Shown here: positions 4,708 to 29,810 of the stretch, in pieces
Position numbering within the stretch: position 1 is the stretch's first letter
Layout: each line of letters opens with the position of its first letter
Assembly: GCA_035495615.1 (NCBI GenBank)
Contig: DATJFP010000048.1
Span: 1 to 33,007 of the forward strand
Origin: Verrucomicrobiia bacterium
GTDB lineage: Bacteria > Omnitrophota > Omnitrophia > Omnitrophales > Aquincolibacteriaceae
Reading direction: 5' to 3'
DNA: 33,007 bases
The notes under the pieces: model-generated
The model's database searches: none
What the model was told of the DNA's origin: nothing
Seen by the model: the letters and a program-made list of their open reading frames with translations, nothing else
Program-made: the position numbers and the translations under genes

Positions 4708-5706
4708 CTATTGCTGGTCGAAGACCTCTTCCCCTGCGCCCGCCTGGTCGTTTTTTTGAGGGATCATGATCTTGGTCCCCGTAAAATGGGTCTCCTCCGC
4801 CGCGTCCTTGCCTGTCAGGATCGCACCGTCCTTGTAATAGTTCCGGGAAATAACGCGCCCGCTCTCATGATAAATGATGCTGGCCCCGTCCAGGATACCC
4901 TTTTTATAAGTCAGCTCGGCCTGGAGCTTCCCGTTCGGAAAATATTTCTTGGTGACACCGTCTTCCCTGCCGCCGTGGAAACTCCATTCCGCGTACAGCT
5001 CGCCGGTCGGATAAAACGTTTTCGTGATGCCGTCCGGCGGGTTCGGCGGCGGCAGCATGGGATCGCGCTTGGGCGCTGAGGAGATCTTCATGTCCTGCTG
5101 GATCTGGTCTTTGCCGCCTTTCAGGAAGGGAGAGTTCGGATCAAAGAGAAAGGCGACCAGGCCGAGAAAGGCCATGAGCCCCAGGAACTGCAGAAAAAGC
5201 TTGAGGCCGCCGGGCTTCTCGTTTTTGCTGCCTTTTTCGTAGACGACTTCGTCGCGCGTGTCTTCTTCGTTGAAGAAATCGCCGCGGCGCTTGACCTTGC
5301 CGGTCTCTTCGTAGATCACGGCTTCGCCCTGCTGCCTGCCGTCCTTAAAGCGGCCTTCTTTTTTGATGATGCCGCTGCTGTAGTAGACCTTGGCCGGCCC
5401 GTGCATGCGTCCATTGGCATAAGGAAGTTCCGACTGGACCGTGCCGTTACGGTAATACGACTTCATCGGGCCGTGCAACTTTCCCTTGCGGTAGATTTCT
5501 TCGATCCAAAGCTCGCCCGTGTCGTAGAACTGCTGGCAGATGCCTTCGATGTTCCCGGACTGATATTCCATCTTGCGCTTGACCGCGCCTGTCTCGTAGT
5601 ATTCGACGGTCGGGCCTTCCTGGATGTTGTCGACGAAGGACATGGTCCGGCGTTTGGCGCCGGAGAGGAAGTATTCTTTTTTGATCGTTTTGACACCCGC
5701 ACTCAT
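4708..5706 (-). CDS. Membrane protein with YwqK/MORN-like repeats on both sides of one helix
   Basis: A 332-residue protein built from repeats of about 20-23 residues of the pattern YY.TG..K....Y..G...G (for example EYYETGAVKRKMEY, SYYRNGTVQSELPY, KYFPNGKLQAELTY, IYHESGRVISRNYY). This is the MORN-variant repeat of YwqK-type proteins. About six copies fill residues 10-155, one membrane helix follows (about 173-192, LFLQFLGLMAFLGLVAFLF), and about three more copies lie at 225-300. These repeats form beta-hairpin solenoids, and in some bacteria the family is annotated as toxin-antitoxin-associated. No toxin gene is adjacent here, so that role is not claimed. The ATG at 5706 has AAGGTG six bases upstream. 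Confidence 0.75.
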   Translation of the reverse strand: MSAGVKTIKKEYFLSGAKRRTMSFVDNIQEGPTVEYYETGAVKRKMEYQSGNIEGICQQFYDTGELWIEEIYRKGKLHGPMKSYYRNGTVQSELPYANGRMHGPAKVYYSSGIIKKEGRFKDGRQQGEAVIYEETGKVKRRGDFFNEEDTRDEVVYEKGSKNEKPGGLKLFLQFLGLMAFLGLVAFLFDPNSPFLKGGKDQIQQDMKISSAPKRDPMLPPPNPPDGITKTFYPTGELYAEWSFHGGREDGVTKKYFPNGKLQAELTYKKGILDGASIIYHESGRVISRNYYKDGAILTGKDAAEETHFTGTKIMIPQKNDQAGAGEEVFDQQ

Positions 5707-5848: not shown

Positions 5849-6559
5849 ATGTTTTTATTCCTTAAGCTCTACCTCGCCCATCTCATCGGGGATTTCATCC
5901 TCCAGTTCGAAGAGCTTTACCGCCTGAAAGTGCGCAGCGTGTGGGGGCATTTGCTGCACGTCCTGATCCACGTCCTGGTCTCGCTCATCATCATTTACCC
6001 GTACTGGCACCAGCCTTCGATCTGGTTTTTCATCCTCGGGCTGGGCACCGTGCATTTCATCCAGGACGTGATCAAATACACGACGCAAAAGAAAATTCCG
6101 GCCTACACGTTTCCGCTTTTTGTGATCGACCAGATCTTCCACGGGCTCGTGGTCTCGAGCGTGATGCTGCTCCCGGTAAGCCGCCTCGTGCTGGGCTTCG
6201 ACGGCGCGCCCTGGGACGCCTATTACCGGGAAAGCACGTGGACGCTTTATCTGATCGCCTTTGTGCTGGTGACCTTCGGCGGGAGCTACCTTCTTTATAA
6301 CTTCAGGAAGAATTACATCCCGGGTACGCGCCCCGACCATCTGATCACGCCGTTTGAAATGAGCCACGCTCTCATCGAAAGGCCGCTGATCGCGGGCATT
6401 TTCCTTTTTGGGGATTCGCCCCTCATCTGGCTGTTCGCGCTGCTGGCCGGAATCCCCCGCCTCTTTTTTCCGAAACTGCGCGACCCGCTGGACTTTTCCA
6501 TGAGCTTTTTGTACAGCGCCCTCATCGGGCTGATTTTTAAAACCTGGATCCCCCACTGA
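5849..6559 (+). CDS. DUF3307-type integral membrane protein
   Basis: A 236-residue, strongly hydrophobic protein with about six membrane helices. The N terminus, LAHLIGDFILQ, followed by a His-rich helix (HLLHVLIHVLVSLI) and HFIQDVIKY, matches the conserved His/Asp pattern of the DUF3307 family. The family has no established function. Its conserved polar residues within membrane helices could point to metal binding or catalysis in the membrane, which is inference. The stop codon overlaps the ATG of the downstream GAF-PP2C gene (TGATG), so the two are very likely co-translated. No strong Shine-Dalgarno sequence precedes the ATG. Confidence 0.75.
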   Translation: MFLFLKLYLAHLIGDFILQFEELYRLKVRSVWGHLLHVLIHVLVSLIIIYPYWHQPSIWFFILGLGTVHFIQDVIKYTTQKKIPAYTFPLFVIDQIFHGLVVSSVMLLPVSRLVLGFDGAPWDAYYRESTWTLYLIAFVLVTFGGSYLLYNFRKNYIPGTRPDHLITPFEMSHALIERPLIAGIFLFGDSPLIWLFALLAGIPRLFFPKLRDPLDFSMSFLYSALIGLIFKTWIPH

Positions 6560-7881
6560 TGCCCAAGAAAAAAACGCGCCGCGCCGCCCGGCCGGTGCGG
6601 GCGAAGAAAAAGTCTCCACCCGCCCGGAACAAGGAAGCCGCAAACCTGCGCAAGGTCCTGGCCGTCAACGCCAAGATCAATTCCACGCTGAACCTCGACG
6701 AACTCCTCGGCATCATCATGAAGACCGCCGCGGAAGTCATGCGCACGGAGGCGTCTTCGCTCATGCTTGTCGATGAAGCCACGCAGGAACTCGTCTTCCG
6801 TGTCGCGCTGGGAGAAAAGGGCAAAGACCTGGTGGAAAAATTCCGGCTGAAGATGGGCGAAGGCATTGGCGGCTACGTCGCCAAAACGGGCGAACCGGTC
6901 GTCGTGAACGATCCGGCCGGCGACCCGCGCTTTGCCAAGCGCTTCGACAAGGCCACGGGATTCTCGACCAAGGCCATCCTTTGCGTGCCCATGAAAAACC
7001 GCGACAAAATCATCGGCGTGCTCCAGGCCATCAACCCGATCGGCCGCCCGCGTTTCGAAAAAGACGAGCTGGGACTTTTTGAAGTGTTCGCGGATCAGGC
7101 GTCGCTGTCTGTCGAAAATGCGCGCATGCATTCGGAGCTCGTGCGCCAGGAGCGCGCCAAGCAGGAGCTTGCGATCGCGCACCAGATCCAGCAGAATTTC
7201 CTTCCCGACCTTTCCCAGCAGGGCTTCTCGGCGGACCTCGCGGCCCGCACGCTTCCCGCGCTCATGGTGGGCGGCGATTTTTACGACGTGATCCGCGTGA
7301 GCGATACCAAGACCAGCATCGTGATCGGCGACGTTTCCGGTAAAGGCGTGCCGGCCGCGCTCACCATGGTGCGCGCGATTTCCGAATACCGGTTCCTCGT
7401 GTCGCAGCACTCCTCGCCCGCCGAGCTGCTCCATCACCTGAACGACCGCCTTTGCCAGAATTCGAGCTTCGGCATTTTCGTGACCTTTTTGTGCCTGCTG
7501 CTCGACACGGACCAGAAAAAAATAATCTACAGCTCCGCGGGCCATCACCCCATCCTGATGCGTGAGGCTAAGTCCTCGGAAGCCTCGTTTCTGACGGACG
7601 CAGGCGGCATTCCGCTCGGGCTCATGCCCGGCAGCGTGTATGCCCAGGCCGAACGTTCCGTGGCAAGCGGCGACGCGATGATGCTTTACACGGACGGCGT
7701 GATTGAGGCGCGGGACCGCGCGGGAAAAGAATATGGAGCAGAACGGTTGAAACTTTTCTTGCAGGCCGGCCGTTCAAGCGCGGCCGAGTATTCGGAGAGA
7801 TTGCTGGAAGATTACCGTCAGTTCACTTCAGGCGCGCCGCAGCACGACGACACGACGGTGCTCGCGATCAAGATCCGTTAG
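6559..7881 (+). CDS. GAF-domain PP2C (RsbU/SpoIIE-type) serine phosphatase
   Basis: A 440-residue soluble signalling phosphatase. Domains in order: a basic N-terminal tail (1-28), a GAF sensor domain (about 42-190, with the motif MGEGIGGYVAKTGEPVVVND), a short coiled-coil linker (RQERAKQELAIAHQIQQNFLP), and a PP2C_SIG catalytic domain (about 218-438). The metal-binding motifs are visible: GGDFYDV near 238-244, IGDVSGKGVPAAL near 256, LYTDGVIEARD, and QHDDTTVL near the end. Such enzymes dephosphorylate STAS-domain anti-sigma antagonists in partner-switching pathways. A STAS gene lies 1.2 kb downstream at 9116, which makes it a natural candidate substrate. The 3' end overlaps the convergent histidine kinase gene by 14 bp. 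Confidence 0.93.
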   Translation: MPKKKTRRAARPVRAKKKSPPARNKEAANLRKVLAVNAKINSTLNLDELLGIIMKTAAEVMRTEASSLMLVDEATQELVFRVALGEKGKDLVEKFRLKMGEGIGGYVAKTGEPVVVNDPAGDPRFAKRFDKATGFSTKAILCVPMKNRDKIIGVLQAINPIGRPRFEKDELGLFEVFADQASLSVENARMHSELVRQERAKQELAIAHQIQQNFLPDLSQQGFSADLAARTLPALMVGGDFYDVIRVSDTKTSIVIGDVSGKGVPAALTMVRAISEYRFLVSQHSSPAELLHHLNDRLCQNSSFGIFVTFLCLLLDTDQKKIIYSSAGHHPILMREAKSSEASFLTDAGGIPLGLMPGSVYAQAERSVASGDAMMLYTDGVIEARDRAGKEYGAERLKLFLQAGRSSAAEYSERLLEDYRQFTSGAPQHDDTTVLAIKIR

Positions 7882-9025
7882 GCGCGGAACGCGCGATCTT
7901 GCGGGGCATCGTGAGGATAAACGTCGTGCCCTTTCCCAGCTCGCTTTCGATTTGGATCTCGCCCTGGTGTTTCTTCACCGTGCGGTCAATGATCAAAAGC
8001 CCCAGCCCTGTTCCCTTCTGCCCCTTGGTGGAAAAGAAAGCCTCGAAAAGCCGCGCCTTCACTTCCGCGGTCATGCCGATGCCGTTGTCTTCCACTTTGA
8101 GAACGTAGCGCTCCGCGTCGAGCGGCTCGGCCGTCACGCGCACGGCGGAATCCGCGCGCTTGGGGTCGGTGGCTTCCATGGCGTTTTTGATGAGGTTGAG
8201 CAGCGTCCGGTACACCGCGCGGCGGTCGCAGTCCACCCAATCGAGTTCCGGCGAGGCTTTGAATTCCAGCGCCACGCGAAGATCTTTGGCTTTGTCGAGA
8301 AGCGATTCCTGCAGCTCTTTGAACAGTGCGGCCATGTCCACGCGGTCCAGATCGAGTTCGTAATCTTTGGTGAGGCTCAGCATGTCCATCGTAAAGCCTT
8401 CCAGTTCCTTAAGCGCCTTTTCCATGTTCGCGGCGCCGCGCACGATGAATTCGTCTTTTTTCTTGGCAAGGCCGCGCGCGATGAATTCGTAAGAGAGTTT
8501 CGCCAGCTGCATGATGTTTTTGATTTCATGGATGACCATGCCGGTCGTCTGTCCCACGGCGGCCAGGCGTTCCATGCGCAGATTTTCTTCAAACAGCATG
8601 ATGTTCTTCAAGGCCCCGGCCATCTGGAATCCCAGGCCGACGGCGAGATCCAGGTCCTGCGGCTCGAAAGCCGGCGCCTTTTCGCTTTTGACGAAGGCGG
8701 CCACGCCGAGCGCGCTGTTGCGGGAAAGAAGCGGGAGAAAAATAAACCGGCCGTCGTGGACAGGCTTGCCGCGGCGCAGGACTTCGTCCGCCCTTTTCTC
8801 GAGATCCGCGAGGAATTCCGGGGAAGCCGTGCCGGGATCGGGCACGCGGCTGTCGAGCCAGATGCGGTTCTGGTTGCCAAGGAGGTACAGAAAACCTTCA
8901 TCCGCGGCGATAAATTTAGAAGCGCTTTCGAGGAAAAAGAGGCAAAGCGATTTTCTTTCGAGAAGAGACTGGTAAATTTTGCCGATTTCGTGGGCGGACT
9001 CGAAAACGGCGTCGCGTTCCGTCAT
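7868..9025 (-). CDS. Soluble GAF-domain sensor histidine kinase
   Basis: A 385-residue kinase with no membrane helix. An N-terminal GAF-like region (about 10-140) is followed by a dimerisation helix with the H-box VIHEIKNIMQ (His near 166) and an HATPase domain. The HATPase shows the N-box NLIKNAMEA (near 281), G1 DNGIGM (near 313), FEAFFSTKGQ and GTGLGL (near 338). All motifs needed for kinase activity are present. The frame stays open 27 codons further upstream, but that extension would run through the divergent STAS promoter. The ATG at 9025 has GAAGGG five bases before it and was chosen. No cognate response regulator is adjacent; its partner is unknown. Confidence 0.92.
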   Translation of the reverse strand: MTERDAVFESAHEIGKIYQSLLERKSLCLFFLESASKFIAADEGFLYLLGNQNRIWLDSRVPDPGTASPEFLADLEKRADEVLRRGKPVHDGRFIFLPLLSRNSALGVAAFVKSEKAPAFEPQDLDLAVGLGFQMAGALKNIMLFEENLRMERLAAVGQTTGMVIHEIKNIMQLAKLSYEFIARGLAKKKDEFIVRGAANMEKALKELEGFTMDMLSLTKDYELDLDRVDMAALFKELQESLLDKAKDLRVALEFKASPELDWVDCDRRAVYRTLLNLIKNAMEATDPKRADSAVRVTAEPLDAERYVLKVEDNGIGMTAEVKARLFEAFFSTKGQKGTGLGLLIIDRTVKKHQGEIQIESELGKGTTFILTMPRKIARSAPNGS

Positions 9026-9055: not shown

Positions 9056-9084
9056 TTGTGCAACCGTGGCAAAGCCCCTATAAT
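9056..9084 (+). promoter_or_regulatory. Sigma70-like promoter for the STAS-cyclase operon
   Basis: TTGTGC (9056-9061) and a perfect TATAAT (9079-9084) are separated by 17 bp, predicting transcription from about 9091 and a leader of about 25 bases before the STAS ATG at 9116, which is preceded by AAGG. The promoter sits in the 90-bp divergent gap with the histidine kinase gene. Confidence 0.65.
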
Positions 9085-9115
9085 CTGGCACAAAAGAGGT
9101 TACCACTCAAGGCTC

Positions 9116-9451
9116 ATGAAAATCATACCCGATAAAATACCGTCCGGCATTCCCGTGATGCGCTTCGACGGAGACCTTGATTACCATGCTTCGGCGGATC
9201 TGAGATCCGGCTTAAACAAATTTTTGGAAAGCCCGCACCTGCTCCTGGACCTGGCCAAGGTGGGGTACATGGACAGCTCCGGCATTGCTGTCTTTGTGGA
9301 GCTCTCCCAGAAAATCAAAGCCCACGGCGGTAAAATCGTTTTCTTCAATCTCGCCCCGGCCGTCAAAAGCGTTTTCGAGCTGGCCAAGCTGCATCTGTTT
9401 TTCTCGATCGCGGGCTCGCAGGAAGAGGCCGTAAAAATCGTCTCCGGATGA
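9116..9451 (+). CDS. STAS-domain protein (anti-sigma factor antagonist type)
   Basis: A 111-residue single-domain STAS protein of the SpoIIAA/RsbV type. The signature is LLLDLAKVGYMDSSGIAVF: the Asp-Ser-Ser-Gly at residues 53-56 contains the Ser that is phosphorylated by anti-sigma kinases and dephosphorylated by PP2C enzymes in this family. A start further upstream in the same frame would ignore the promoter at 9056-9084 and was rejected. The stop codon overlaps the ATG of the CHASE2 cyclase (ATGA), so the two are translationally coupled. No anti-sigma kinase of the RsbW type lies in the window, so the binding partner may be encoded elsewhere. A direct link to the cyclase is also possible. 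Confidence 0.9.
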   Translation: MKIIPDKIPSGIPVMRFDGDLDYHASADLRSGLNKFLESPHLLLDLAKVGYMDSSGIAVFVELSQKIKAHGGKIVFFNLAPAVKSVFELAKLHLFFSIAGSQEEAVKIVSG

Positions 9452-11667
9452 TCAAGCGGCTGCTTCCCCATCTCATCCCCGTTTTCCTGCTTTTTCTCGT
9501 CGTCAGCCTTTACTCCCTGATCCCCGAACCGCTGGAGGCGGTACGGCTGCGTTTCTTCGATTTGTTCCAGCAGATGCAGCCGCGGCTTTATGAGCCCGCG
9601 CCCGTGAAGATCATCGACGTGGACGAAGAGTCGCTGGCGCGCCACGGCCAGTGGCCCTGGCCGCGCTCGCTCATCGCGCAGCTCGTCCTTCGTCTCAAGG
9701 AAGAAGGTGCCGAGGTCATCGGCTTCGACGTCCTGTTTCCCGAACCGGACCGGACTTCACCGCGCAACATCGTCCCGCTTTGGCCGGACACGCCTGAAAC
9801 CAGCCGCCTCAAAACCGAAATCGCGAATCTCCCGGACCATGACGAAATTTTTGCCAAAGCCATCGGCGAAGCCAAAGTCGTCTCGTCCTTCAGCCTGCAC
9901 CGTGAAGCCAACAAATCGGAACCCGTCCGCAAAGCCGGTTTTAGTTTTGCGGGCGACATGCCCGGCCAATTCCTGTCGGACTTTCCCGGCGCGGTGACAA
10001 GCCTCCCGGGCATCGAAAAAGCGGCCGCAGGAAACGCGATCGTCAATTATTTTCCGGAATACGACGGCATCATCCGCCGCGTTCCCCTTCTCTTCCAATT
10101 GCGCGGCAATCTTTATCCGCAGCTCGCGCTGGAAGCCACGCGGCTTTTCCTGGGCGCGCCGGGCTACATCGTGAAATCTTCCGGCGGCAGCGGCGAAGCG
10201 AGCTTCGGAAAAAAAACCGGCATCGTGGCGATCAAAGTCGGAAAGCACGTCATTCCGACGGACGCGAAAGGACGGATCTGGCTGTACGACACGGGTTCCA
10301 TTCCGGAACGTTATGTCCCGGCCTGGCGCGTGCTCGACAAAGACATGGGCGATCAAAGCGTGAAAGACTCCATTGTTTTCATCGGGACGAGCGCGATCGG
10401 CCTGAAAGACCTGCGGTCCACGCCGCTTGCGCCGAGCGCGGCCGGCGTGGAGCTTCACGCGCAGATCGCGGAACAAATCCTGCAGGACCGTTACCTTTAC
10501 CGGCCGGACTGGGCGATCGGCGCGGAAGTCTCGTTCATCGTGGCGCTGGGGCTTGTGCTCGTCCTGGTTATGCCGCACCTGGGCGCCGCGGTTTCGGCCG
10601 TCTTGTGCGCCTTCTGCTTTGCCGGAATTTATTATGGCTCCTGGATCGCCTATTCGCAGCATCAGTGGCTGGTGGATCCGCTGATTCCGTCGGTCGCGTG
10701 CCTGGTGATTTATCTTTCCTCGTCGCTCATCCACTTTCTGCAAACGGATTCGGAAAAGCGCCACATCCGCGGCGCGTTCAGCCGCTACCTCGCGCCGGCC
10801 ATCGTGGCGGAACTGGCCAATAATCCGGACCGCCTGCGTCTGGGCGGCGAAATGAAAGAGATGAGCCTTTTGTTCGCGGACATTCGCGGCTTCACCACGC
10901 TTTCCGAGCGCTTCGAGCCCGAAGAGCTCACGCATTTCATGAACCGCTTTCTCACGCCCATGACCGAGATCATCCTGCAGCACAAAGGCACCATCGACAA
11001 ATACATGGGCGACTGCATCATGGCGTTCTGGAACGCGCCGCTCGACGATCCGGAGCACCGCGCGCATGCCTGCCGCGCCGCGCTGGAAATGCAGGCGCAT
11101 CTGGTGAAGTGGAACGCGGAGCTTGAAAAAGAAACAGCGGCCGGCGCCAAAAATTTCGGCGCCGTCAAACTGGGCATCGGCCTCAACACGGGCCGGTGCT
11201 GCGTGGGAAACATGGGCTCGGACCAGCGCTTCGACTATTCGGCCATGGGCGACGCCGTGAACCTGGCTTCGCGCCTGGAAAGCCTTTCACGCAATTACGG
11301 CGTGGAAATTCTGGCGGGAGAGAACACGCGGGACAATCTTCCGGGCTTTTGCTTTCTGGAAGTCGACACCGTGCGCGTCAAAGGCAAGACCAAGCCCGCT
11401 CGCCTCTTCGCGCTTCTCGGAGACGCTTCCCTCGAAAACGCCCCGGGCTTTACGTCCCTGAAATCAAAGCACGCGCAGATGCTCGCGGCCTACCGCAGCC
11501 AGTCCTGGAAAGAAGCGCTCGCCCTGGCCCGGGAACTCAAGGGCATGAAAATTCCGGGCCTCGAGCTGGAAATGCTGTACGCGCTTTATGCTCAGAGGAT
11601 CGAACAGTACGCGGCGGTTTCTCCGGGACAGGATTGGGACGGCGTGACGATCGCGATGTCGAAATAG
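9448..11667 (+). CDS. CHASE2-domain class III adenylate cyclase
   Basis: A 739-residue membrane receptor. Its parts in order are an N-terminal helix (about 7-27), an extracytoplasmic CHASE2 sensor (about 40-340, with IIDVDEESLARHGQWPWPR and GFDVLFPEPDR), three membrane helices (about 355-440), a class III cyclase domain (about 465-645), and a C-terminal extension of about 95 residues. The catalytic motifs are intact: LLFADIRGFTTLSERF (first metal Asp near 477), DKYMGDCIMAFW (second metal Asp near 521), and FDYSAMGDAVNLASRLE with the Asn/Arg of the transition-state site. The pattern fits ATP rather than GTP as substrate. The signal seen by CHASE2 domains is unknown. FecR-type envelope proteins lie immediately downstream on the other strand. 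Confidence 0.93.
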   Translation: MIKRLLPHLIPVFLLFLVVSLYSLIPEPLEAVRLRFFDLFQQMQPRLYEPAPVKIIDVDEESLARHGQWPWPRSLIAQLVLRLKEEGAEVIGFDVLFPEPDRTSPRNIVPLWPDTPETSRLKTEIANLPDHDEIFAKAIGEAKVVSSFSLHREANKSEPVRKAGFSFAGDMPGQFLSDFPGAVTSLPGIEKAAAGNAIVNYFPEYDGIIRRVPLLFQLRGNLYPQLALEATRLFLGAPGYIVKSSGGSGEASFGKKTGIVAIKVGKHVIPTDAKGRIWLYDTGSIPERYVPAWRVLDKDMGDQSVKDSIVFIGTSAIGLKDLRSTPLAPSAAGVELHAQIAEQILQDRYLYRPDWAIGAEVSFIVALGLVLVLVMPHLGAAVSAVLCAFCFAGIYYGSWIAYSQHQWLVDPLIPSVACLVIYLSSSLIHFLQTDSEKRHIRGAFSRYLAPAIVAELANNPDRLRLGGEMKEMSLLFADIRGFTTLSERFEPEELTHFMNRFLTPMTEIILQHKGTIDKYMGDCIMAFWNAPLDDPEHRAHACRAALEMQAHLVKWNAELEKETAAGAKNFGAVKLGIGLNTGRCCVGNMGSDQRFDYSAMGDAVNLASRLESLSRNYGVEILAGENTRDNLPGFCFLEVDTVRVKGKTKPARLFALLGDASLENAPGFTSLKSKHAQMLAAYRSQSWKEALALARELKGMKIPGLELEMLYALYAQRIEQYAAVSPGQDWDGVTIAMSK

Positions 11668-11678
11668 CCGGACGGCTA
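11665..11678. other. Inverted repeat containing both convergent stop codons
   Basis: TAGCC (11665-11669) and GGCTA (11674-11678) form a perfect 5-bp stem around GGAC. The left arm begins with the TAG stop of the cyclase gene. The right arm ends with the CTA that is the stop codon of the minus-strand FecR gene. No T-run follows on either strand, so it would be at most a weak bidirectional 3'-end hairpin. Confidence 0.4.
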
Positions 11679-12947
11679 GATCGAAATCGAAACGCTGGGC
11701 GTGGGTGACGGCTGCACGGAAGTTTCCATGTATTGCTTCCGCAGATCCTCGTTGGCGGCATCGTGGGAAGACTCCCGGATGTCCTTTTCGAGATCCACCG
11801 TCATTTGGTCGATCTGGCGCGTGCTGCTGCTCGTATCAAGAGCATCGGATGAAGCCCGGTAATCTTTCGAGATATCCCCGCTGTCCATCTTGAAGGCTTC
11901 TTCCCCGCCAAGGCCGCCCTCGAAAGAATCTTCCGTGTAATCCGCGCGGGTTTCCGGCATGTCCATCTCTCCAAGCGAAGACGTTCCTGAGTCTTTCATG
12001 TCCGTCGTGGTGTCCGTCATGCGCGTGGAATCCATCGTTTCCGGAGCTTTCATGTCGGTCGTCCTCATGTCGGCCGGGGCCTTCGTCGACGACGCCATGC
12101 TGCCGCTCGAGTCACGGCCGTCCGGCGCCTTGTTGGCGGCCGTCCGTGACGTGTCTTTGGACCCGTCGTCCGCTTTCCGGGTTTCGGCTTTGGTATCGCG
12201 CGCGGATTCACTTTTCGCGCTATCCTGCTGCGGTTCCTTTTTCTCTTCCTGAACCATGAGAGGGCTGATCATCTCCTGGATGCGCTCGGCCGGAAATTCG
12301 AAGGCGGGCGTCGGAGGAACGTTGAGGCCTTCGATCACCGTGCCGTAGCCGGCCTTGGTCACGTCCACACTGACCGTCTCGCCGTCGACTTCATTACTCA
12401 CCGCAATCGCGCCTACATGCTCGCCGGAAGTCGTCTTGTCGCCGGGGCCCAAAAGAAGAATCTCCGAATGAAAGCCGTTCACCTGGCCGCAGAAGATAGT
12501 GCCGCGGATGCCGACGGAACCGGCGGGCAGCTTGATCTCGACGTTCTTCGGATTCTTTTTGCCGATCTTACCCGTGACTTCGCGGAAGGCGCCCGCCAGG
12601 ATGCTTGCCGCGACTTTGCCGTCGTGGGTCTGGGGGTCGTAAACAAATTCATCGATGACGATGCGGCTGTTAGGGCCGATCGTAAAAACGGATTCGTCCA
12701 TCAAAAGGATCTGCAGCTGGCCCTTGTCGTCGGTTCGGACTTCGTCGCCGAGGTAGACGGGCTCGCCGCTCTGGACCACGCGTCCGACCTTTTCCGAGGA
12801 AGCAATCTCGACCGTGCCGCGCGCCGCGGCGATCACGCCCACCTGCGCGGCCGGAGGCAGCGGCGCGTTCATGGACGTCTGGGCAAAGCCCCAGGGCAGG
12901 GCCGCCAGGCCAAGCAAAAGCCCGTAAAAGAGCGTCTTTTTGTTCAT
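11676..12947 (-). CDS. Exported FecR-domain protein with low-complexity tail (paralogue 1)
   Basis: A 423-residue protein. A signal peptide ends near residue 22 (ALPWGFAQ). The FecR domain follows (about 50-160) with GEPVYLGDEVRT, ESVFTIGPNSRIVIDEF, GAFREVTGKI and GSVGIRGTIF. After about residue 235 the sequence becomes a long Asp/Ser/Thr/Lys/Met-rich stretch without predicted fold. FecR domains are best known in periplasmic anti-sigma regulators, but here there is no membrane helix, sigma factor or TonB receptor nearby. This belongs instead to the exported FecR-domain proteins of unknown role. The FecR core is closely similar to the gene at 13097-14503, which indicates duplication. No ribosome-binding site is visible before the ATG. 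Confidence 0.85.
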   Translation of the reverse strand: MNKKTLFYGLLLGLAALPWGFAQTSMNAPLPPAAQVGVIAAARGTVEIASSEKVGRVVQSGEPVYLGDEVRTDDKGQLQILLMDESVFTIGPNSRIVIDEFVYDPQTHDGKVAASILAGAFREVTGKIGKKNPKNVEIKLPAGSVGIRGTIFCGQVNGFHSEILLLGPGDKTTSGEHVGAIAVSNEVDGETVSVDVTKAGYGTVIEGLNVPPTPAFEFPAERIQEMISPLMVQEEKKEPQQDSAKSESARDTKAETRKADDGSKDTSRTAANKAPDGRDSSGSMASSTKAPADMRTTDMKAPETMDSTRMTDTTTDMKDSGTSSLGEMDMPETRADYTEDSFEGGLGGEEAFKMDSGDISKDYRASSDALDTSSSTRQIDQMTVDLEKDIRESSHDAANEDLRKQYMETSVQPSPTPSVSISI

Positions 12948-13096
12948 ATTTAAAAGGTAGTTCTATGCGGGAAGGAAGTCAAAGGCGGGAGCCCGTGGAC
13001 ACAAAGATGATAGAAAGAACACTTTTTAAAGCGCTAGGACCCTATGAAAACCCTTGGGAGAGAAGGCTTAGGAGTTGATGGAGGGGTGAAAAGAGG

Positions 13097-14503
13097 CTAA
13101 CTCTGGCCCGGGACCCGGTCGCCCACGCCGGAACCTTCGACGGTGGAAACGCTTTTGGTCACGGTCACGTCGGCGATGGCCGCCTGGGCCACGTTCCCGG
13201 AAGCATTCGCAAGGACGATCGTCACGTCGGCCGAACAGCCCGTGCAGGGCGTCGGGGCGGTGCTGTCGAGCAGTCCCGAAAAATCGAAGATGCCGTATCC
13301 GGCCAGCCCCTGGTCAAACGGGGTTGTGGGAATGTTGAACTGGAAATTGGTGTTCGAATTAATCGTGCCGGCATGGCCGGTGATTTTCGAGCCGCCGCCG
13401 CCGATCGTACGCGCTCCAAAGTCGATGTTCATGGCAAAAGTAAAATCGCCGTCATCGGTCGTACCGCTGAAGAGATCGCCCGTGAATCCGTATTTGAATT
13501 GGCCGGTTTCGATACGAGACAAATCGTCTATCGAGGTCAGGCCGTCGAGGAGCTCCAAAGAGTCGTCCGCGGCGTCCTGCGTCGCCTTGTCGGACTCCTG
13601 GCTCAAAGCCTCTCCGGTATCGCTGATGACGTCGAAGTCCAGGGCCTGATCCGCGGCGATAAACGTATCCTGGCCCGCCTGCTCCGTGGCTGAACCTTTT
13701 TGGGCCGTTTCAGGAGCCGCGTTCGAAGGCGAAGAACTTTGCGATCCCTGCGAGTCTTTCTCTTCCTGCTGCGGCGGGGGCTGATTCAACGATGTCGTCA
13801 TCTGATTGATTTGCTCATCGCTGAAGCGGTAGGACGGAAGCGGCGCCTGGTTTTCCCCGGGGATTTCGGAACCGAATCCGGACTTGTTCACGATCGACTC
13901 TTTCATCTGGCCGTTCACTTCGTTGCGCACGGCGATCTCCCCTTTCCGGTGCGCGGTATTGTTGTTTTCGCCCGGGCCCAGGAGAAGCAGCGTGGAGTGC
14001 AGACCCTGGACGTTGCCGTAAAGCATGGTGCCGCGGATACCGACCTCACCCGAAGGAAGCTTGACGCCGATTCTCTTGGGATCTTTGTGCGCGATGTTGC
14101 CGGTGACGAGGCGGAACACGCCTTTGAGGATGCGGGCGTCGATTTTACCGTCATGGGTCTTGGGATCATAGACAAATTCGTCGATGACGATGCTGCTGTC
14201 AGGCCCGATGGTGAAAACCGTTTCATCCAGCAGCAGGATCTGGAGCGTCGAGTCCGGCCCCGTGGTCACGGCATCGCCGAGATAAACGGTTTCGCCGCTG
14301 GAAACGATGCGTCCGACTTTGCCGTCCGGCACGATCTCGACTTTCCCTTTCACGACAGCCACGATGCCCACCGCAGGGCCGGCCGGGGCCGGAACCGTTG
14401 CGGGCTGAGGCAGGGCCGTGACGGGTCCGGGAAGGGTCTGGGCGTACAAGGCATGCACCATGAGAAAAGCGGAACAGAGGACGGCGGCGATCTTCAGCTT
14501 CAT
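13097..14503 (-). CDS. Exported FecR-domain protein with C-terminal beta-rich domain (paralogue 2)
   Basis: A 468-residue protein with a signal peptide (AFLMVHALYAQ) and a FecR domain (about 55-165: GETVYLGDAV, IGPDSSIVIDEF, GVFRLVTGNI, VGIRGTMLYG) nearly collinear with the paralogue at 11676. A Gln/Ser/Pro-rich linker (about 240-300) follows. The C-terminal domain (about 330-455) is rich in Gly, Asn and alternating hydrophobics (DGDFTFAMNIDFGARTIGGG). That last part resembles the small beta-barrel lobes seen in TbpB-like surface proteins, a judgement by eye only. There is no lipobox. The gene starts 4 bp after the stop of the TPR/beta-barrel gene, so the two are clearly in one operon. Confidence 0.85.
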   Translation of the reverse strand: MKLKIAAVLCSAFLMVHALYAQTLPGPVTALPQPATVPAPAGPAVGIVAVVKGKVEIVPDGKVGRIVSSGETVYLGDAVTTGPDSTLQILLLDETVFTIGPDSSIVIDEFVYDPKTHDGKIDARILKGVFRLVTGNIAHKDPKRIGVKLPSGEVGIRGTMLYGNVQGLHSTLLLLGPGENNNTAHRKGEIAVRNEVNGQMKESIVNKSGFGSEIPGENQAPLPSYRFSDEQINQMTTSLNQPPPQQEEKDSQGSQSSSPSNAAPETAQKGSATEQAGQDTFIAADQALDFDVISDTGEALSQESDKATQDAADDSLELLDGLTSIDDLSRIETGQFKYGFTGDLFSGTTDDGDFTFAMNIDFGARTIGGGGSKITGHAGTINSNTNFQFNIPTTPFDQGLAGYGIFDFSGLLDSTAPTPCTGCSADVTIVLANASGNVAQAAIADVTVTKSVSTVEGSGVGDRVPGQS

Positions 14504-14507
14504 AAGG

Positions 14508-15947
14508 TCAGAATTCCCATTTCTTCGTCAGCATGCCCTGCATTTTGTTGTTGCGGTAAGTATAGTTGGTAACGTTCGAAAGGGAACGGAAATATTCGTA
14601 GCTGAAGGTCCAGACAATCCCCCTCAGGACGGATGGGAGCAGCTTTCCTATATAAAGGGTTTCCAACGGCACGCCGTACGTCACGCGATAGCGGAGCGTG
14701 CCGTCTTTGCGGATCTGGGAAGCAATGGCCACGTCCGGGTCGGCATACACGTCGCGCGCCAGATCGATCGAGTTGAGGATGAACTGGCCCTTCCACAGGA
14801 GCGTCGTCACGGATTGCCGGATTTGAAGCCGGTCGTAGGCGTTGAAATCCTCGCGCGCGGTTTTATGGCCGTAAAGCAGGCTGGCGCCGTACGAAATACG
14901 GGGGTGAAGAGCATAGCTGAAGCCATTCTCGAGCTCCGTATAAACGCCCGTGCGCTGCGGAGCCGTGGGGTTTTCCGAAATTCCGGAAAAGTTTTGATGC
15001 TCGATCCTCGTGTCAGAAAAAGCGCTGAAGCGGCCGAAGGTCTTGTCGAAATCGAATTCCCCGCCCTGGGTCCTGAGGAAAGTCTCTCGGGAGAGAAAAA
15101 TATTGTTGGCGTAAAAAAGCGGCGTGAAATTCGCCCATTTGCTTTTCAGGTTGGCCCCGAATTCGTATTGCAGCGACTGCAGGTCCAGGGAATCGACATG
15201 CGTCTGCTCCTGCTGGAAATGCGTGAAGGACGCGAAAATCTCGTGGCCCGCCTGGAAACCCAGGTCATGGACCAGGTTGACCTGCGTGACGTTCACGAAA
15301 CTGTTGTCCCTTGTCGCAACGCTCGATCCGGAAACATCCACGGGGACGTTGGTGACAAGCCGCCGCTTTGAGGACGGCGAGGCGTTGCGGTTCGAGTCGG
15401 CTTCAAATCCCACGCTCTGGCGGACACTCACCTTCGTCCGGCGCAGGCGGCGCTTGATGCGCTTGAGATACGTATCCACTTCCTCCCGCATGTCCGGCGG
15501 CAGCTTTTGCTTTTGAAGGGTTTCCAGCTCGCGCCGCGCCTCGGTCCAGTTGTCCAGGCGGTAGAGAACGACCGCGTAAAAAAGCCGGACTTTCTGCAGT
15601 TTGGGATTGATGAGCAGGATGCGCTCGAGCGTGGTCGCAGCCCCGAGAAGATTGCCTTCCTTCACCTGGGACTGCGCGTATTCGAAATTCAGCTTCAGGT
15701 CGTCGGGACTTTTGAGAATGTCCTCGTAGGTGACCTTCTTGACCTTTTCGAGCCCGGCTTGCTTTTTAGATTGTTCGGAAGTGGCTTCGACTGCCTGCTG
15801 GTTCCGCGTTTCGCGGGTGACCACGCCGGTTTCGTTTTCTTCGTTGAGCTGCGAAAAGCCGCGGGCCGGAAGCAGAAAGCAGAATAAAAGCACGAAAAAC
15901 GCGGCCCGGTGATGTTTCAGGACGCTCCAGCGCGATTTTTTTTCCAT
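14508..15947 (-). CDS. Outer-membrane protein with TPR domain and beta-barrel (Slam-like architecture)
   Basis: A 479-residue protein with a signal peptide (FFVLLFCFLLPARGFSQ, cleaved near residue 33). It has a linker, TPR-like helices at about 75-165 (DDLKLNFEYAQSQVKEGN, LFYAVVLYRLDNWTEARRE), and a C-terminal domain of about 300 residues with alternating hydrophobic and aromatic strands, ending in Phe as outer-membrane barrels usually do. The barrel opens with VSVRQSVGFEADSNRNAS, similar to the GYDSNVN-type opening of TPR-barrel proteins such as the surface lipoprotein assembly modifiers (Slam). Slam proteins move surface proteins across the outer membrane. The FecR/beta-domain protein 4 bp downstream is an obvious candidate client. 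The ATG has AAGGGAG just upstream. Confidence 0.75.
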   Translation of the reverse strand: MEKKSRWSVLKHHRAAFFVLLFCFLLPARGFSQLNEENETGVVTRETRNQQAVEATSEQSKKQAGLEKVKKVTYEDILKSPDDLKLNFEYAQSQVKEGNLLGAATTLERILLINPKLQKVRLFYAVVLYRLDNWTEARRELETLQKQKLPPDMREEVDTYLKRIKRRLRRTKVSVRQSVGFEADSNRNASPSSKRRLVTNVPVDVSGSSVATRDNSFVNVTQVNLVHDLGFQAGHEIFASFTHFQQEQTHVDSLDLQSLQYEFGANLKSKWANFTPLFYANNIFLSRETFLRTQGGEFDFDKTFGRFSAFSDTRIEHQNFSGISENPTAPQRTGVYTELENGFSYALHPRISYGASLLYGHKTAREDFNAYDRLQIRQSVTTLLWKGQFILNSIDLARDVYADPDVAIASQIRKDGTLRYRVTYGVPLETLYIGKLLPSVLRGIVWTFSYEYFRSLSNVTNYTYRNNKMQGMLTKKWEF

Positions 15948-16178: not shown

Positions 16179-16832
16179 ATGCCGCAAATTTTTCATCCTA
16201 GTTCAAACACTCTCGCGAGGGTCAGCATTTTCGGCGCCGTTTTTTTCCTCGGCGCGCTCGGACTCATCATGTCCGCAGTGATCCGCTCGCCTTACATGAC
16301 GCACGTGGGGGTCGCGCGCGACCAGCCGGTGCCGTTCAGCCACAAGCACCACGTGGAAGGTCTGGGCATCGATTGCAGGTACTGCCATACTTCCGTCGAA
16401 AACTCTTCGTTCGCGGGGCTCCCGCCCGCCAAGACGTGCATGAACTGCCACTCGATCATGTGGAACCAGGCGCCCATCCTCGAGCCGATCCGCGAAAGCT
16501 TCCGCACGGGAAAGCCCGTGGCCTGGACGCGCGTTCACGATTTGCCCGACTTCGTTTATTTCGATCACAGCATCCACGTGGCCAAAGGAGTGGCGTGCGT
16601 GGTCTGCCACGGCCAGGTGAACGAAATGCCCCTCATGTCGCGGGCCAACACCCTGCACATGGAATGGTGCCTTCAATGCCACCGGGCCCCGGAAAATTTC
16701 ATCCGGCCCAAAGAAAAAGTTTTCGACATGCACTGGAAGCCTGAAAATCAGAAGCAGATGGGCCAGCAGCTTGTCGCGGAATATCAGATTCACAAGAACC
16801 AGTTGACCAATTGCAGCGTTTGCCACCGGTAA
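16179..16832 (+). CDS. actA: Alternative complex III subunit ActA, pentahaem cytochrome c
   Basis: A 217-residue membrane-anchored cytochrome. One N-terminal helix (about 15-35) is followed by five CxxCH haem sites: CRYCH, CMNCH, CVVCH, CLQCH and CSVCH. This count and length match ActA, which carries electrons out of alternative complex III towards the terminal oxidase on the outer face of the membrane. The N terminus MPQIFHPSSNTLARVS is typical of the family and supports the ATG at 16179, even though no ribosome-binding sequence lies at the normal distance. It is the first gene of the 12-kb act-cox operon. Upstream DNA is AT-rich. Confidence 0.97.
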   Translation: MPQIFHPSSNTLARVSIFGAVFFLGALGLIMSAVIRSPYMTHVGVARDQPVPFSHKHHVEGLGIDCRYCHTSVENSSFAGLPPAKTCMNCHSIMWNQAPILEPIRESFRTGKPVAWTRVHDLPDFVYFDHSIHVAKGVACVVCHGQVNEMPLMSRANTLHMEWCLQCHRAPENFIRPKEKVFDMHWKPENQKQMGQQLVAEYQIHKNQLTNCSVCHR

Positions 16833-16883
16833 TCCTGGACCCCGAGGGGGGCCGGGATCGCCTTATATATAGAAAGACCCAAC

Positions 16884-19865
16884 ATGGATAAACCGGCCTT
16901 CGACCTGTCGAAAATCCGGCAAAAATTGTCCCAGCTCCGCGGTTCCACGTTCTGGCGCAGCCTGGAAGAAGTTGCCGAGACCAAGGACTTCAAGGAATTC
17001 CTGGAACACGAATACCCGCACGGCGCCGCGGAATTCGACCAGCCGATCGACCGCCGCGAGTTCCTGAAGCTCATGGGCGCGTCGATCCTGATGTCCGGCC
17101 TCGCGGGCTGCAAGCTGCCTTCCCTGGAAAAAATCGTCCCCTACTCCAAGATGCCGGAAGAAATCATCCCCGGAAAACCGCTCTTTTTTGCGACCGGCAT
17201 GCCTTTCAACGGCACGACGCTCGGCCTGCTGGCCGAAAGCCACATGGGCCGGCCCACCAAAGTCGAAGGCAACCCCGGACATCCAGACAGCCTCGGCGCG
17301 ACCGACATCTTCGCGCAGGCATCGGTCCTCGGGCTTTACGATCCGGACCGTTCCAAGGTCGTCTTGAATGCGGGCCGCATCCGCACGTGGGATTCGTTTC
17401 TCGAAGCACTCCAGAAAGAACTCGAGCTCCAGGATTCCAAGCAGGGCGCGGGCCTGCGCGTCCTCACTGAAACGGTCACTTCCCCTACGCTCGCGTTCCA
17501 GCTCCGCAGCCTGCTGCAAAAATACCCGAAAGCCAAATGGCATCAGTACGATCCCGTTTCCCGCGACCATGCGCGAAAAGGCGCGAAGATGGCCTTCGGC
17601 GAATACGGCGACCTGCGTTATGATTTTTCCAAAGCCGACGTCGTGTTTTCGCTGGACGCGGACTTTTTCTCGCGCATTCCGGGCAGCCTGCGTTACGCAC
17701 GCCAGTTCATCGACCGCCGGCGCGATCCCGAGACGGCGAACCTCAACCGCCTTTACGCGGTCGAAAGCACGCCCACGCTGGCCGGCTCCGTCGCGGACCA
17801 CCGCTTTGCCATGCGGGCCTCTTCCATTTCTTTTACCGCGATCCAGCTTGCGCAGGCGCTCGGCCTGGACACGCCCGCCGGCATCGTGTCCAAGGCTCCG
17901 AAGGCGCCTTCCTGGCTTGCCGCCGCGGCCGAAGACCTGCGTGCCCACCGGGGTTCGAGCCTCATTCTGGCGGGAGAAGAACAGCCGCCTTTCGTGCACG
18001 CCCTGGCCCATGCCATGAACCAGGTGCTCGGCAATTTCGGAACGACGGTGCAAATCATCCCGACGGTCGAAGATTATCCGCTGGACCAGGAAGCTTCCCT
18101 GCGGGAACTCGTGAACGATCTCAAGCAAGGCCAGGTGGACCTGCTCGTCATGCTCGGCACCAACCCGGCTTATCACGCGCCCGCGGACCTGGACTTTGCC
18201 GGCGCGCTCAGTAAGGCCGGACGCAGCGTGCATCTGGGCCTTTACCAAGACGAGACCGCGATCCTTTCCCACTGGCACGTTCCCGAAACTCATTATCTCG
18301 AAATGTTCTCCGACGGCCGCGCCAGCGACGGCACGGTCACGATGATCCAGCCGCTGATCGAGCCTTTGTACGCCGGAAAATCCGCGCATGAAATCGTTTC
18401 GGTCCTGCTTGAAGGGCGCCTGAAAAAAGGCTACGACGTCGTCCGCGATTACTGGAAAAGCCAATGGGGCGAGCCCGTTTTCGAAAGCAAGTGGCGCCGC
18501 GCCCTGCACGACGGCTTTGTGGAAGGCAGCGCGTTCCAGGCCCGCGGCAAAAGCGTGAAAACCAGCTTCGCGGCCGAAGACTTCGGCGATTTGCCCGATC
18601 CGTCCATGCTCGGCGGCTTTGAAGTCAATTTTCGTCCCGATCCTTCCATTTGGGACGGCCGCTTCGCCAACAACGGCTGGCTCCAGGAATTGCCCAAGCC
18701 CATGTCCACCCTCACCTGGGACAATGCGGTGATGGTCAGCCCGCGCACGGCCGAGGAAATCGGCCTCGAAACCGGCGGCGTGCTCCAATTCACCCGCGGT
18801 TCGAACGTAGTTCTCGCGCCCGTGTGGGTTTCGCCGGGCCAATCCGACGGCACGTTGACGCTGACGCTGGGATACGGACGCACGCACGGCGGGAAGATCG
18901 CGGAAAAAATCGGCTTCAACGCCTACACCGTGCGCTTTTCGGAAGCTTCGAAAGAGGGCTTCCGCATCGGAAAAACCGGCAAGACTGTGGCGCTTGCCGC
19001 GACGCAGCTCCATCACTCCATGGAAGGCCGCAATCTCGTGAGAGCCGCCACTCAAAAGGAATTCGCCAAGGACCGGGAATTCGCGCAGGATCACGAAACC
19101 GGAAACACTTCGATGTATCCGAAATACGAATACAAAGATTACGCCTGGGGCATGGTCATCAATCTCAATGCCTGCATCGGATGCAATGCCTGCATGGTCG
19201 CCTGCCAGTCGGAGAACAACATCCCTGTCGTCGGCAAGACGCAGGTCCTCAAGGGCCGCGAAATGCACTGGATCCGCGTGGACCGTTATTATGAAGGAAG
19301 CGCCGATGATCCCAAGCTGCACAACCAGCCGGTCACCTGCATGCATTGCGAGAACGCGCCGTGCGAACCGGTCTGCCCTGTCGGCGCGACCACGCATTCC
19401 GAGGAAGGCCTGAACGAGATGGTCTACAACCGCTGCGTGGGCACGCGCTACTGCTCGAACAACTGCCCTTACAAAGTGCGCCGCTTCAACTTCCTGGAAT
19501 ATAATGATTATCATACCGAAACGCTCAAGATGATGCGCAATCCCGACGTGACCGTGCGCGTGCGCGGCGTCATGGAAAAATGCACGTACTGCGTCCAGCG
19601 CATCAACGAAGCGCGCATCACGTCCAAGAAAGAGAACCGCAAAATCAGGGACGGCGAGATCAAAACCGCGTGCCAGGCCGCATGCCCGACGCAGGCCATC
19701 GTCTTCGGCGACATCAACGATAAAGAAAGCCAGGTCGCGGGCCTCAAAAAATCGCCGCTCAATTACGGCCTGCTGACCGAGCTCAACACGGTCCCGAGAA
19801 CGACGTATCTGGCCAAAGTCACCAATCCCAATCCCGCGATTTTGGAGGCCGGCCGTGTCCTCTAG
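16884..19865 (+). CDS. actB: Alternative complex III subunit ActB (molybdopterin-like plus iron-sulfur fusion)
   Basis: A 993-residue exported subunit. A twin-arginine signal ([20 protein letters not shown], Arg57-Arg58) ends in a possible lipobox Cys at 76. Residues up to about 740 resemble a molybdopterin oxidoreductase; in characterised complexes this part holds no molybdenum cofactor. The C-terminal part binds iron-sulfur clusters through [11 protein letters not shown] (about 763), [13 protein letters not shown] (about 819), [11 protein letters not shown] (about 851) and CTYC with CQAACPTQA (about 900-935). It relays electrons from the quinol-oxidising membrane part to haems. The gap from actA is 51 bp, wider than most junctions in this operon, and contains CCCC-GA-GGGG and TATATATA. 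Confidence 0.97.
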
Positions 19866-21249
19866 CCCGAAAAAGAAAAAACCGCTGGAAAAACCGCAGT
19901 TCCTATCGCCCAAGCATACTTACTCGACGGTGACCGACAAGATCAGTTCCATCGTGCTGGACGGCAAGATCCATCCGGGCTGGCTGCTGGGGCTCGGCAT
20001 TTCTTTTTCCGTCCTCATGGTGCTCATGACCGCCCTCACGTGGCTTGTCATCCGCGGCGTCGGCATCTGGGGCATCAACATTCCCGTGGGCTGGGGCTTT
20101 GCCATCATCAATTTCGTGTGGTGGATCGGCATCGGGCACGCGGGCACGCTGATTTCCGCGATCCTGCTGCTTCTCCGCCAGGAGTGGCGCACGTCCATCA
20201 ACCGTTTTGCGGAAGCCATGACGCTTTTTGCCGTGTCCTGCGCAGGCGTCTTTCCGCTCATTCACGTGGGCCGCATTTACAAGGCCTACTGGCTTTTCCC
20301 GTACCCCAATACCATGGGCCTCTGGCCGCAGTTCCGCAGCCCGCTCATGTGGGACGTCTTCGCCGTATCGACTTACGCGACGGTCTCGCTCCTTTTCTGG
20401 TACGTCGGTCTTATTCCCGACCTCGCCACGCTGCGCGACCGCTCGACAAAAAAAATTCCGCGGATTATCTACGGGATCTTTTCCATGGGCTGGCGCGGTT
20501 CGGCCCGGCACTGGTTCCGTTACGAAACCGCTTACCTCCTGCTCGCAGGGATCGCGACGCCGCTGGTCATTTCCGTGCACACGATCGTCGGCCTGGACTT
20601 CGCGGCCTCGATCATCCCGGGCTGGCACACGACGATCTTTCCGCCTTATTTCGTGGCCGGCGCCATCTTCGCGGGCTTTGCCATGGTGCTGGTGCTGGCG
20701 ATCCCGCTGCGCAAATTTTACGGCCTGGAAGATTTCATCACGATCAAGCACATGGACAACATGGCCAAAATCATCCTGGCCACCGGGCTCCTCGTTTCTT
20801 ACGGGTACATGATGGAATGCTTCGGCGCCTGGTACAGCGGCAGCCGTTACGAACAGTTCATGATCCTCAACCGCATGTACGGCCCGTACGCGCCGTTCTA
20901 CTGGGCGCTCATCTTCTGCAACGTCCTGACACCGCAGGTTTTCTGGCTGAAAAAATGCCGCACCAATCAGGTTGTCCTGTTTGTCGTTTCGATCATTGTC
21001 AGCATCGGCATGTGGCTGGAACGATTCGTCATCGTGGTGATCAGCCTTCACCGCGACTTTCTTCCTTCTTCCTGGGGCATGTACTGGGGCACGAAATGGG
21101 ACTGGGCCACGTTCATCGGAACGATGGGCCTCTTCTTCACGCTGCTCTTCCTGTTCATCCGCGTGCTTCCCATGATCGCGATTTCCGAAATGCAGGTACT
21201 CGCCCAGGAAACCAAGGAAGAGCACGAAGAAAAATCAAAGGATCATTAA
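19855..21249 (+). CDS. actC: Alternative complex III subunit ActC (NrfD/PsrC-like quinol-binding membrane subunit)
   Basis: A 464-residue integral membrane protein with about ten helices of the NrfD/PsrC family, including the family-typical stretch [20 protein letters not shown]. It provides a quinol site and probable proton path in alternative complex III and docks under ActB. The start is GTG at 19855, preceded at six bases by GGAGG, and overlaps the end of actB by 11 bp. The sequence begins with a basic, lysine-rich cytoplasmic tail. The C-terminal tail is charged ([13 protein letters not shown]). The length agrees with the family. Confidence 0.96.
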
Positions 21250-21250
21250 A

Positions 21251-21802
21251 ATGTCAGCGGGACCCGAAGTTAAATCCGATTTGTGGGGCATCCTGGCGGA
21301 ATTCGAAACGCCGGAAGCGCTGGTGGAAGCCGCGCGCAAGGTGACGAAAGCGGGTTACAAACGCTTCGACGCGTATTCGCCTTTTCCGATCGAGGGCCTG
21401 CACGAGGCCATGAACTTCCACCGCAACCGCCTGCCGCTTCTTGTCCTGATCGGCGGCATCCTCGGCGGGCTCGCGGGTTTCGGCATGCAGTATTATGCGA
21501 ACGTCTTCAGCTTCCCGCTCAACATCGGCGGCAAGCCCCACAACAGCTGGCCCGCGTTCATCCCGATCACATTCGAGCTCACGATCCTGGGCGCGGCTTT
21601 CGCGGCCGTCTTCGGCATGCTGGCCCTGAACGGCCTGCCCATGCCGTACCACCCGCTCTTTAACGTGGAACGCTTCGCGCTGGCGACGCGCGACCGCTTT
21701 TATCTTTGCATCGAAAGCCGGGACAAGCTCTTCGACCCGGACACGACGAAATCGTTTCTCGAATCCCTGAAACCGCACGGCATTTACGACGTGGACCGCT
21801 GA
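21251..21802 (+). CDS. actD: Alternative complex III subunit ActD (DUF3341)
   Basis: A 183-residue membrane subunit of the DUF3341 family. A cytoplasmic N-terminal domain contains the typical FDAYSPFPIEGLHEAM stretch, and two helices follow (about 58-80 and 95-125). A short C-terminal domain includes RFYLCIESRDKLFD. ActD is a structural subunit packed against ActC in solved complexes and holds no cofactor. The ATG is 1 bp after the actC stop, and the stop codon overlaps the actE start (TGATG). Confidence 0.96.
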   Translation: MSAGPEVKSDLWGILAEFETPEALVEAARKVTKAGYKRFDAYSPFPIEGLHEAMNFHRNRLPLLVLIGGILGGLAGFGMQYYANVFSFPLNIGGKPHNSWPAFIPITFELTILGAAFAAVFGMLALNGLPMPYHPLFNVERFALATRDRFYLCIESRDKLFDPDTTKSFLESLKPHGIYDVDR

Positions 21803-25991: not shown

Positions 25992-26000
25992 GGGAATTTT

Positions 26001-29744: not shown

Positions 29745-29772
29745 GTTCTCTCCTTACGAAGGGGGATGAAGT

Positions 29773-29781
29773 ATTTTACCA
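29773..29781 (-). promoter_or_regulatory. Extended -10 promoter for the MscS gene
   Basis: On the minus strand TGGTAAAAT forms an extended -10 element (TG, one base, TAAAAT), with predicted transcription from about 29766 and a leader of about 22 bases carrying AAGGAG. No good -35 is seen, as is common for extended -10 promoters. Confidence 0.45.
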
Positions 29782-29810
29782 GAGACCGGAAGGTTTGCGC
29801 CGGTTTTGCA

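Follow-up and report, generated by a model that had tools for sequence, protein, structure and literature searches.

A gene cluster encoding a STAS protein, a CHASE2 adenylate cyclase, two exported FecR-domain proteins (FecR1 and FecR2), and a TPR/beta-barrel protein was analyzed in a window of 33,007 nucleotides, which is contig 48 (DATJFP010000048.1) of a 3.16 Mb Omnitrophota genome. FecR genes were found to be strongly enriched beside CHASE2 genes, in several phyla and with all four types of cytoplasmic output. The locus is genuine and functionally linked, and the model of the original prediction, in which FecR proteins handled by the barrel are sensed by CHASE2 and reported as cyclic AMP (cAMP), is reasonable in outline. 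We lean toward the view that the locus belongs to a widespread type of envelope-to-cytoplasm signaling module in which FecR is read by CHASE2.

FecR genes accompany CHASE2 receptors across phyla

The neighborhood sample comprised 77 CHASE2 loci from a search of 285 Omnitrophota genomes, 80 named genomes, and 11 plasmid records, picked without reference to FecR. Omnitrophota had 60 FecR open reading frames (ORFs) per 411 kb within 3 kb of CHASE2 versus 1 per 604 kb beyond (Fisher 7e-24), and the named genomes had 47 per 406 kb versus 2 per 704 kb (Fisher 3e-19), whereby both Fisher values overstate independence, the loci being related. FecR genes are thus 40–90 times denser inside the 3-kb zone around CHASE2 than outside it, and the association, for which a survey across phyla had been proposed, extends well beyond this genome. 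FecR stood beside CHASE2 in all plasmid neighborhoods (11/11), and 30 of 33 divergent FecR calls that were checked matched Pfam PF04773 at E<=0.01. The pairs occur in 18 gene orders, and the presence of FecR changes 11 times on the tree, which shows repeated reassembly. FecR followed by CHASE2 in the same direction ('F> C>') is frequent, with 21 loci.

Among the testable loci, FecR was near CHASE2 with a cyclase output in 67 of 88, with GGDEF in 8 of 13, with a histidine kinase in 5 of 7, and with SpoIIE in 11 of 19 cases. As FecR accompanies CHASE2 with all four outputs, the established association tracks the sensor and not the output, and this is most simply read as a relation of FecR to the CHASE2 ectodomain rather than to cAMP. 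Barrel, FecR, and CHASE2 cyclase occur together in Omnitrophota, Elusimicrobiota, Alphaproteobacteria, and one myxobacterium. Tree-distance correlations over 65 cyclase loci were 0.86 for barrel–FecR (31 loci), 0.72 for FecR–CHASE2, 0.65 for FecR–cyclase, and 0.54 for barrel–cyclase; the ordering barrel–FecR > FecR–CHASE2 > FecR–cyclase is no more than suggestive, given the differences in length and rate between the domains. Fusions of FecR with CHASE2 or with the barrel were found in none of the loci.

The genome that carries the window has four CHASE2 genes, and at three of these (L050 and L051 included) a FecR-like gene lies no more than 3 kb away; in the Pfam check of these FecR-like genes, L050 was weak and L051 did not match at E 0.01.

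Several loci of the survey deserve mention in their own right. A small FecR gene (~150–190 aa) directly adjoins a CHASE2-GGDEF diguanylate cyclase at L041, L042, L057, L060, L066, L067, and L088, so that, judged from sequence, the FecR–CHASE2 pair may feed cyclic di-GMP (c-di-GMP) as well in Omnitrophota. Direct fusions of CHASE2 and a SpoIIE phosphatase, close to STAS genes, occur at L052, L056, L064, L065, L082, L085, L086, and L089, and these fusions are a predicted envelope-sensing route into partner switching. At L090 (Ensifer plasmid) and L095 (Shinella plasmid), the CHASE2 cyclase and FecR genes belong to NHLP-type bacteriocin export clusters that also encode a cyclic-nucleotide-binding protein, a further case of FecR–CHASE2 adjoining an export system. 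A considerable number of alphaproteobacterial CHASE2 cyclases with neither FecR nor barrel in the vicinity (in L101–L180, e.g., L103, L114, L117, L121, L141, L150, L166, and L173) have close relatives that do have FecR/barrel.

The cyclase, the FecR-domain proteins, and the barrel

The gene content, the domains, and the predicted folds of the locus are established. The five proteins claimed in the original prediction are all present according to Pfam matches and the AlphaFold model of the barrel; among the window ORFs, STAS, CHASE2, cyclase, FecR, and TPR_19 matched above the family cut-offs. From left to right, the genes encode a GAF-SpoIIE phosphatase (+), a GAF-HATPase kinase (-), the STAS protein (+), the CHASE2 cyclase (+), FecR1 (-), FecR2 (-), and the TPR/barrel protein (-). 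The main features are:

9448..11667, + strand: CHASE2 adenylate cyclase, 739 aa (Pfam CHASE2 1.1e-56, Guanylate_cyc 1.1e-22)
9496..10557, + strand: CHASE2 sensor domain (Pfam match)
11676..12947, - strand: FecR1, exported FecR-domain protein adjoining the cyclase (Pfam FecR 1.2e-9; signal peptide MNKKTLFYGLLLGLAALPWGFAQ)
13097..14503, - strand: FecR2, exported FecR-domain protein adjoining the barrel, with FecR domain, linker, and C-terminal beta-rich domain (Pfam FecR 1.8e-7)
14508..15947, - strand: TPR domain plus predicted 14-stranded outer-membrane barrel, Slam/type 11 secretion system (T11SS)-like (TPR_19 1.1e-7; AlphaFold model)

The CHASE2 domain scored 192.7 bits (cut-off 26.3). Hydropathy places a transmembrane helix at residues 7–25, followed by the extracytoplasmic CHASE2 domain of ~330 aa, three C-terminal transmembrane helices, and the class III cyclase, whereby one helix, the third of four, was positioned by eye. 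The catalytic residues are intact (metal-binding D478/D522, adenine-specifying K518, and transition-state N605/R609), and in the alignment with the Protein Data Bank relative CyaB (3r5g, 3.6e-32), the active-site residues line up, with Ser598 at the position of the CyaB Thr. The enzyme is predicted to produce cAMP, and the genome encodes two cyclic-nucleotide-binding proteins, one of them CRP-like. A solved CHASE2 structure was not found by sequence-profile search. In Sinorhizobium meliloti, plasmid-borne CyaD1 without a CHASE2 domain leads to constitutive cAMP (PMC5498481), in agreement with a regulatory role of CHASE2 in restraining the cyclase. In magnetotactic bacteria, a CHASE2 cyclase comes after mtxA (PMC4439547). 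The CHASE2 matches at L070–L075 (ORFs of 756–900 aa; 1.3–1.7 kb) carry an insert of ~100–270 aa inside the CHASE2 domain; FecR was considered as its identity and rejected, as the extra sequence is not FecR.

In agreement with the original prediction, both FecR paralogues are exported and convergent with the cyclase: they have Sec-type signal peptides and no further membrane segment, and their genes converge on the cyclase gene with a gap of 8 bp. FecR1 has a long, low-complexity, probably disordered tail. In the FecR2 model, the FecR domain reached a predicted local distance difference test score (pLDDT) of ~80–95, and its top fold match is the PupR CSSD (6ovk). Residues 39–110 of FecR2 (window positions 14174–14389), the first half of the FecR domain, also match 5ix9, labeled as the 'cell surface anchoring domain' of an antifreeze adhesin, with a root-mean-square deviation of 1.0 A over 63 columns (TMt 0.78); a single-sequence search also found this entry, as a weak match (E 0.0014). 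NCBIfam retention_LapA matched 8 of 16 FecR proteins, all below the curated cut-off (23–26 bits versus 50). This hints at a relationship between FecR and LapA-type retention domains, and judged from the 5ix9 and LapA matches, FecR may serve in the periplasm as the retention or plug element of a surface protein. The C-terminal domain of FecR2 has 8 predicted strands (region 341–462, low confidence). A proven TbpB-like barrel was rejected for this region, given an hhalign probability of 0.4% and fHbp/TbpB fold matches only at E>=0.1.

The barrel gene lies 4 bp upstream of FecR2. Its AlphaFold model (mean pLDDT 84) shows TPR helices and 14 transmembrane strands. The window protein itself gave no match to SlipAM (PF04575); its ortholog L031 passed the model (25.8 versus a cut-off of 22), and 9 of 20 relatives matched it at E<=0.1 (best 1.3e-9), with TPR_Slam also matched among the relatives. 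The predicted 14-strand fold and the SlipAM matches of the relatives bear out the earlier description of the barrel as Slam-like. The barrel is present in 18 of 285 Omnitrophota genomes, and FecR directly adjoins every Omnitrophota copy whose flank is on the contig. FecR tails have a median length of 294 aa beside a barrel versus 103 aa otherwise (p 7e-6). Some alphaproteobacterial FecR C-termini match slam_lipo weakly (L095 1e-8, L118 1.6e-6, L138 5.6e-6), all below the curated cut-off. T11SS-like export of FecR2 by the barrel is only plausible, because the FecR2 tail is predicted to be beta-rich (low confidence) yet not demonstrably related to slam_lipo-type tails.

Neighboring genes

To the left of the cyclase gene are the following features:

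9116..9451, + strand: STAS-domain protein, anti-sigma-factor-antagonist type (Pfam STAS 1.4e-19; NCBIfam ant_ant_sig 66 bits, cut-off 53)
6559..7881, + strand: GAF-SpoIIE (PP2C) phosphatase (SpoIIE 1.1e-47, GAF 5.8e-22)
7868..9025, - strand: GAF-HATPase histidine kinase (ORF to 9106; likely ATG start at 9025; HATPase_c 2.2e-25)

The STAS protein likely starts at the ATG at 9116 rather than at 9056, and its gene shares an ATGA overlap with the cyclase gene (9448–9451), which makes an operon likely. The shared promoter proposed for the two genes is inferred from this arrangement; the promoter and terminator scan of the locus gave signals at chance level, and an Rfam scan of the window returned no matches. 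The adjacent phosphatase and histidine kinase genes are real, as the above family matches show, and the kinase gene is divergent from STAS. Orthologs of the phosphatase occur at the Omnitrophota loci L010–L012, L015, L016, L020, L026, and L028, and those of the kinase at L015, L020, L026, and L028. The part of phosphatase, kinase, and STAS in the mechanism is uncertain, and the suggested role as modulators is weakly supported, because the three genes recur at the locus mainly in Omnitrophota family f1 and are rare or mostly missing elsewhere.

To the right of the locus, window positions 16179–28610 carry alternative complex III genes (cytochrome c7, ActB-like, NrfD, ActD, cytochrome c), and then SCO1 plus a cytochrome c oxidase set; this operon represents an aerobic respiratory chain, here in a member of the Omnitrophota, and is unrelated to the locus by annotation. 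A MscS-type channel adjoining a DUF6973 protein (28626–30824, -) and a MORN-repeat protein (4708–5706, -) are also encoded in the window.

Proposed mechanism, alternatives, and related systems

In the proposed mechanism, FecR-domain proteins would be exported to the periplasm, and in this variant, the outer-membrane TPR barrel of the Slam/T11SS-like type would receive the longer FecR or have it threaded through. The periplasmic CHASE2 ectodomain would read the FecR domain, free or barrel-held, and set the activity of the attached cytoplasmic output. Here, this output is the class III adenylate cyclase, and the CRP-type protein of the genome would respond to its cAMP. We infer the contact between FecR and CHASE2, the direction of signaling with FecR as the input, FecR as the barrel substrate, and the production of cAMP. 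Several points weigh against this mechanism. Gene order is unable to show contact or direction. FecR is missing within 3 kb at 21 of the 88 testable cyclase-type CHASE2 loci, mostly in Alphaproteobacteria, so that CHASE2 may function without an adjacent FecR. Two Omnitrophota barrel–FecR pairs (L186 and L187) have no CHASE2 nearby on the contig. The partial correlation of FecR–CHASE2 exceeded that of FecR–cyclase in only 90% of bootstraps, and the window-type FecR2 C-terminus is unlike Slam-cargo-like C-termini (hhalign probability 0.4%).

A less probable but serious alternative is that FecR and the barrel are outputs, with the CHASE2 cyclase sensing something else and cAMP controlling the neighboring FecR/barrel surface structure. 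In S. meliloti, the cAMP regulator Clr targets the FecR protein gene smc02177 (PMC5498481); this agrees with FecR as an output and counts against FecR as the input, and a regulator placed beside its own target would likewise yield tight neighborhoods. However, the pairing also holds with a phosphatase, diguanylate cyclase, or kinase output, and regulator and supposed target are possibly co-transcribed in the 21 same-direction loci. A CRP site near the FecR/barrel operon was considered and rejected, as no CRP-like palindrome was found there at <=2 mismatches, whereby the consensus may differ from the motif of this organism.

It is rather improbable that the barrel is a polysaccharide exporter (BcsC/PelB-like TPR-barrel), with the FecR proteins as assembly factors and the cyclase regulating or monitoring export. 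BcsC was indeed the best fold match of the barrel, PelBC was among the first matches, and NCBIfam gave a weak match to BcsC; the fold matches are general barrels, with OmpG as a further one. Yet polysaccharide synthase genes were not found among the window ORFs scanned, the barrel has 14 predicted strands and relatives that match SlipAM and TPR_Slam, and the Slam-dependent lipoprotein model has weak matches among neighboring FecR proteins of some alphaproteobacteria. Finally, chance neighborhood or inherited synteny without function is very improbable: the order kept within one Omnitrophota family is possibly inertia, but the 40- to 90-fold enrichment in several phyla with four output types contradicts it and the 18 gene orders speak against passive synteny.

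A broader version of the sensing mechanism is possible, but we regard it as tentative: CHASE2 could be a general receptor for FecR-domain proteins, whose LapA-retention-related folds would inform CHASE2 of how export at the outer membrane or surface is proceeding, and CHASE2 would in turn drive interchangeable outputs (cAMP, c-di-GMP, phosphorelay, partner switching). Here, FecR would be the substrate of the T11SS-like barrel and secretion itself the signal.

Partial versions of the cluster have already been published, and the locus is a variant of this partly published cluster type. In Campylobacterota, a CHASE2 adenylate cyclase, a FecR outer-membrane protein, a TPR protein, and a phosphodiesterase are clustered, for which a common pathway and horizontal transfer were proposed (PMC9239204). 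The window likewise combines CHASE2 cyclase, FecR, and TPR genes, but it has two FecR paralogues, STAS/SpoIIE/histidine kinase neighbors, and a TPR protein with a predicted 14-strand barrel, while the Campylobacterota one was compared as a TPR protein only; a phosphodiesterase family was not found among the window ORFs scanned. In the BiofilmReg operon of Burkholderia and relatives (PA4035-type), a LysM-FecR is paired with a CHASE2 kinase, and P. aeruginosa has a two-gene pair (PMC5192318). An exported FecR-domain protein adjoins a CHASE2 receptor there too, but a PAS-histidine kinase and a response regulator form the output, LysM is part of the FecR protein, and no barrel is described. S. meliloti CyaK (L098) is a CHASE2 cyclase with an overlapping FecR gene directly upstream; this FecR has ~1200 aa, and no barrel was found nearby.

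The barrel resembles Slam/T11SS proteins (DUF560/SlipAM) in its N-terminal TPR domain, its 14 strands, and an adjoining exported protein with a C-terminal beta domain, but it stays below the SlipAM model and FecR2 is not a lipoprotein. With FecIRA cell-surface signaling, the locus shares the FecR fold, but its FecR proteins have neither an anti-sigma domain nor a transmembrane anchor, and, as had been noted originally, sigma-factor and TonB-receptor families were not found among the window ORFs scanned. For the LapA-type adhesin retention module and the 5ix9 anchoring domain, the similarity lies in the fold, and weakly in the sequence, of the first FecR-domain half; the differences are that the retention matches stay below the cut-off and that no RTX adhesin was seen.

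New are the output-independent pairing, the Slam/T11SS-like barrel, and the similarity in fold between the FecR domain and an adhesin anchoring domain. The output-independent FecR–CHASE2 pairing is stated in no publication found, with incomplete coverage of the literature. CHASE2 receptors are common, and to our knowledge, no ligand is known for them; likewise, we know of no agreed function of soluble FecR-domain proteins outside iron signaling. A pairing at the domain level that persists when output, gene order, and phylum change offers one testable hypothesis for both CHASE2 and FecR. Should this hypothesis be true, a T11SS-like barrel would also be connected with second-messenger signaling, a link unmentioned in two published T11SS surveys, which mention neither FecR nor CHASE2 nor cyclases.

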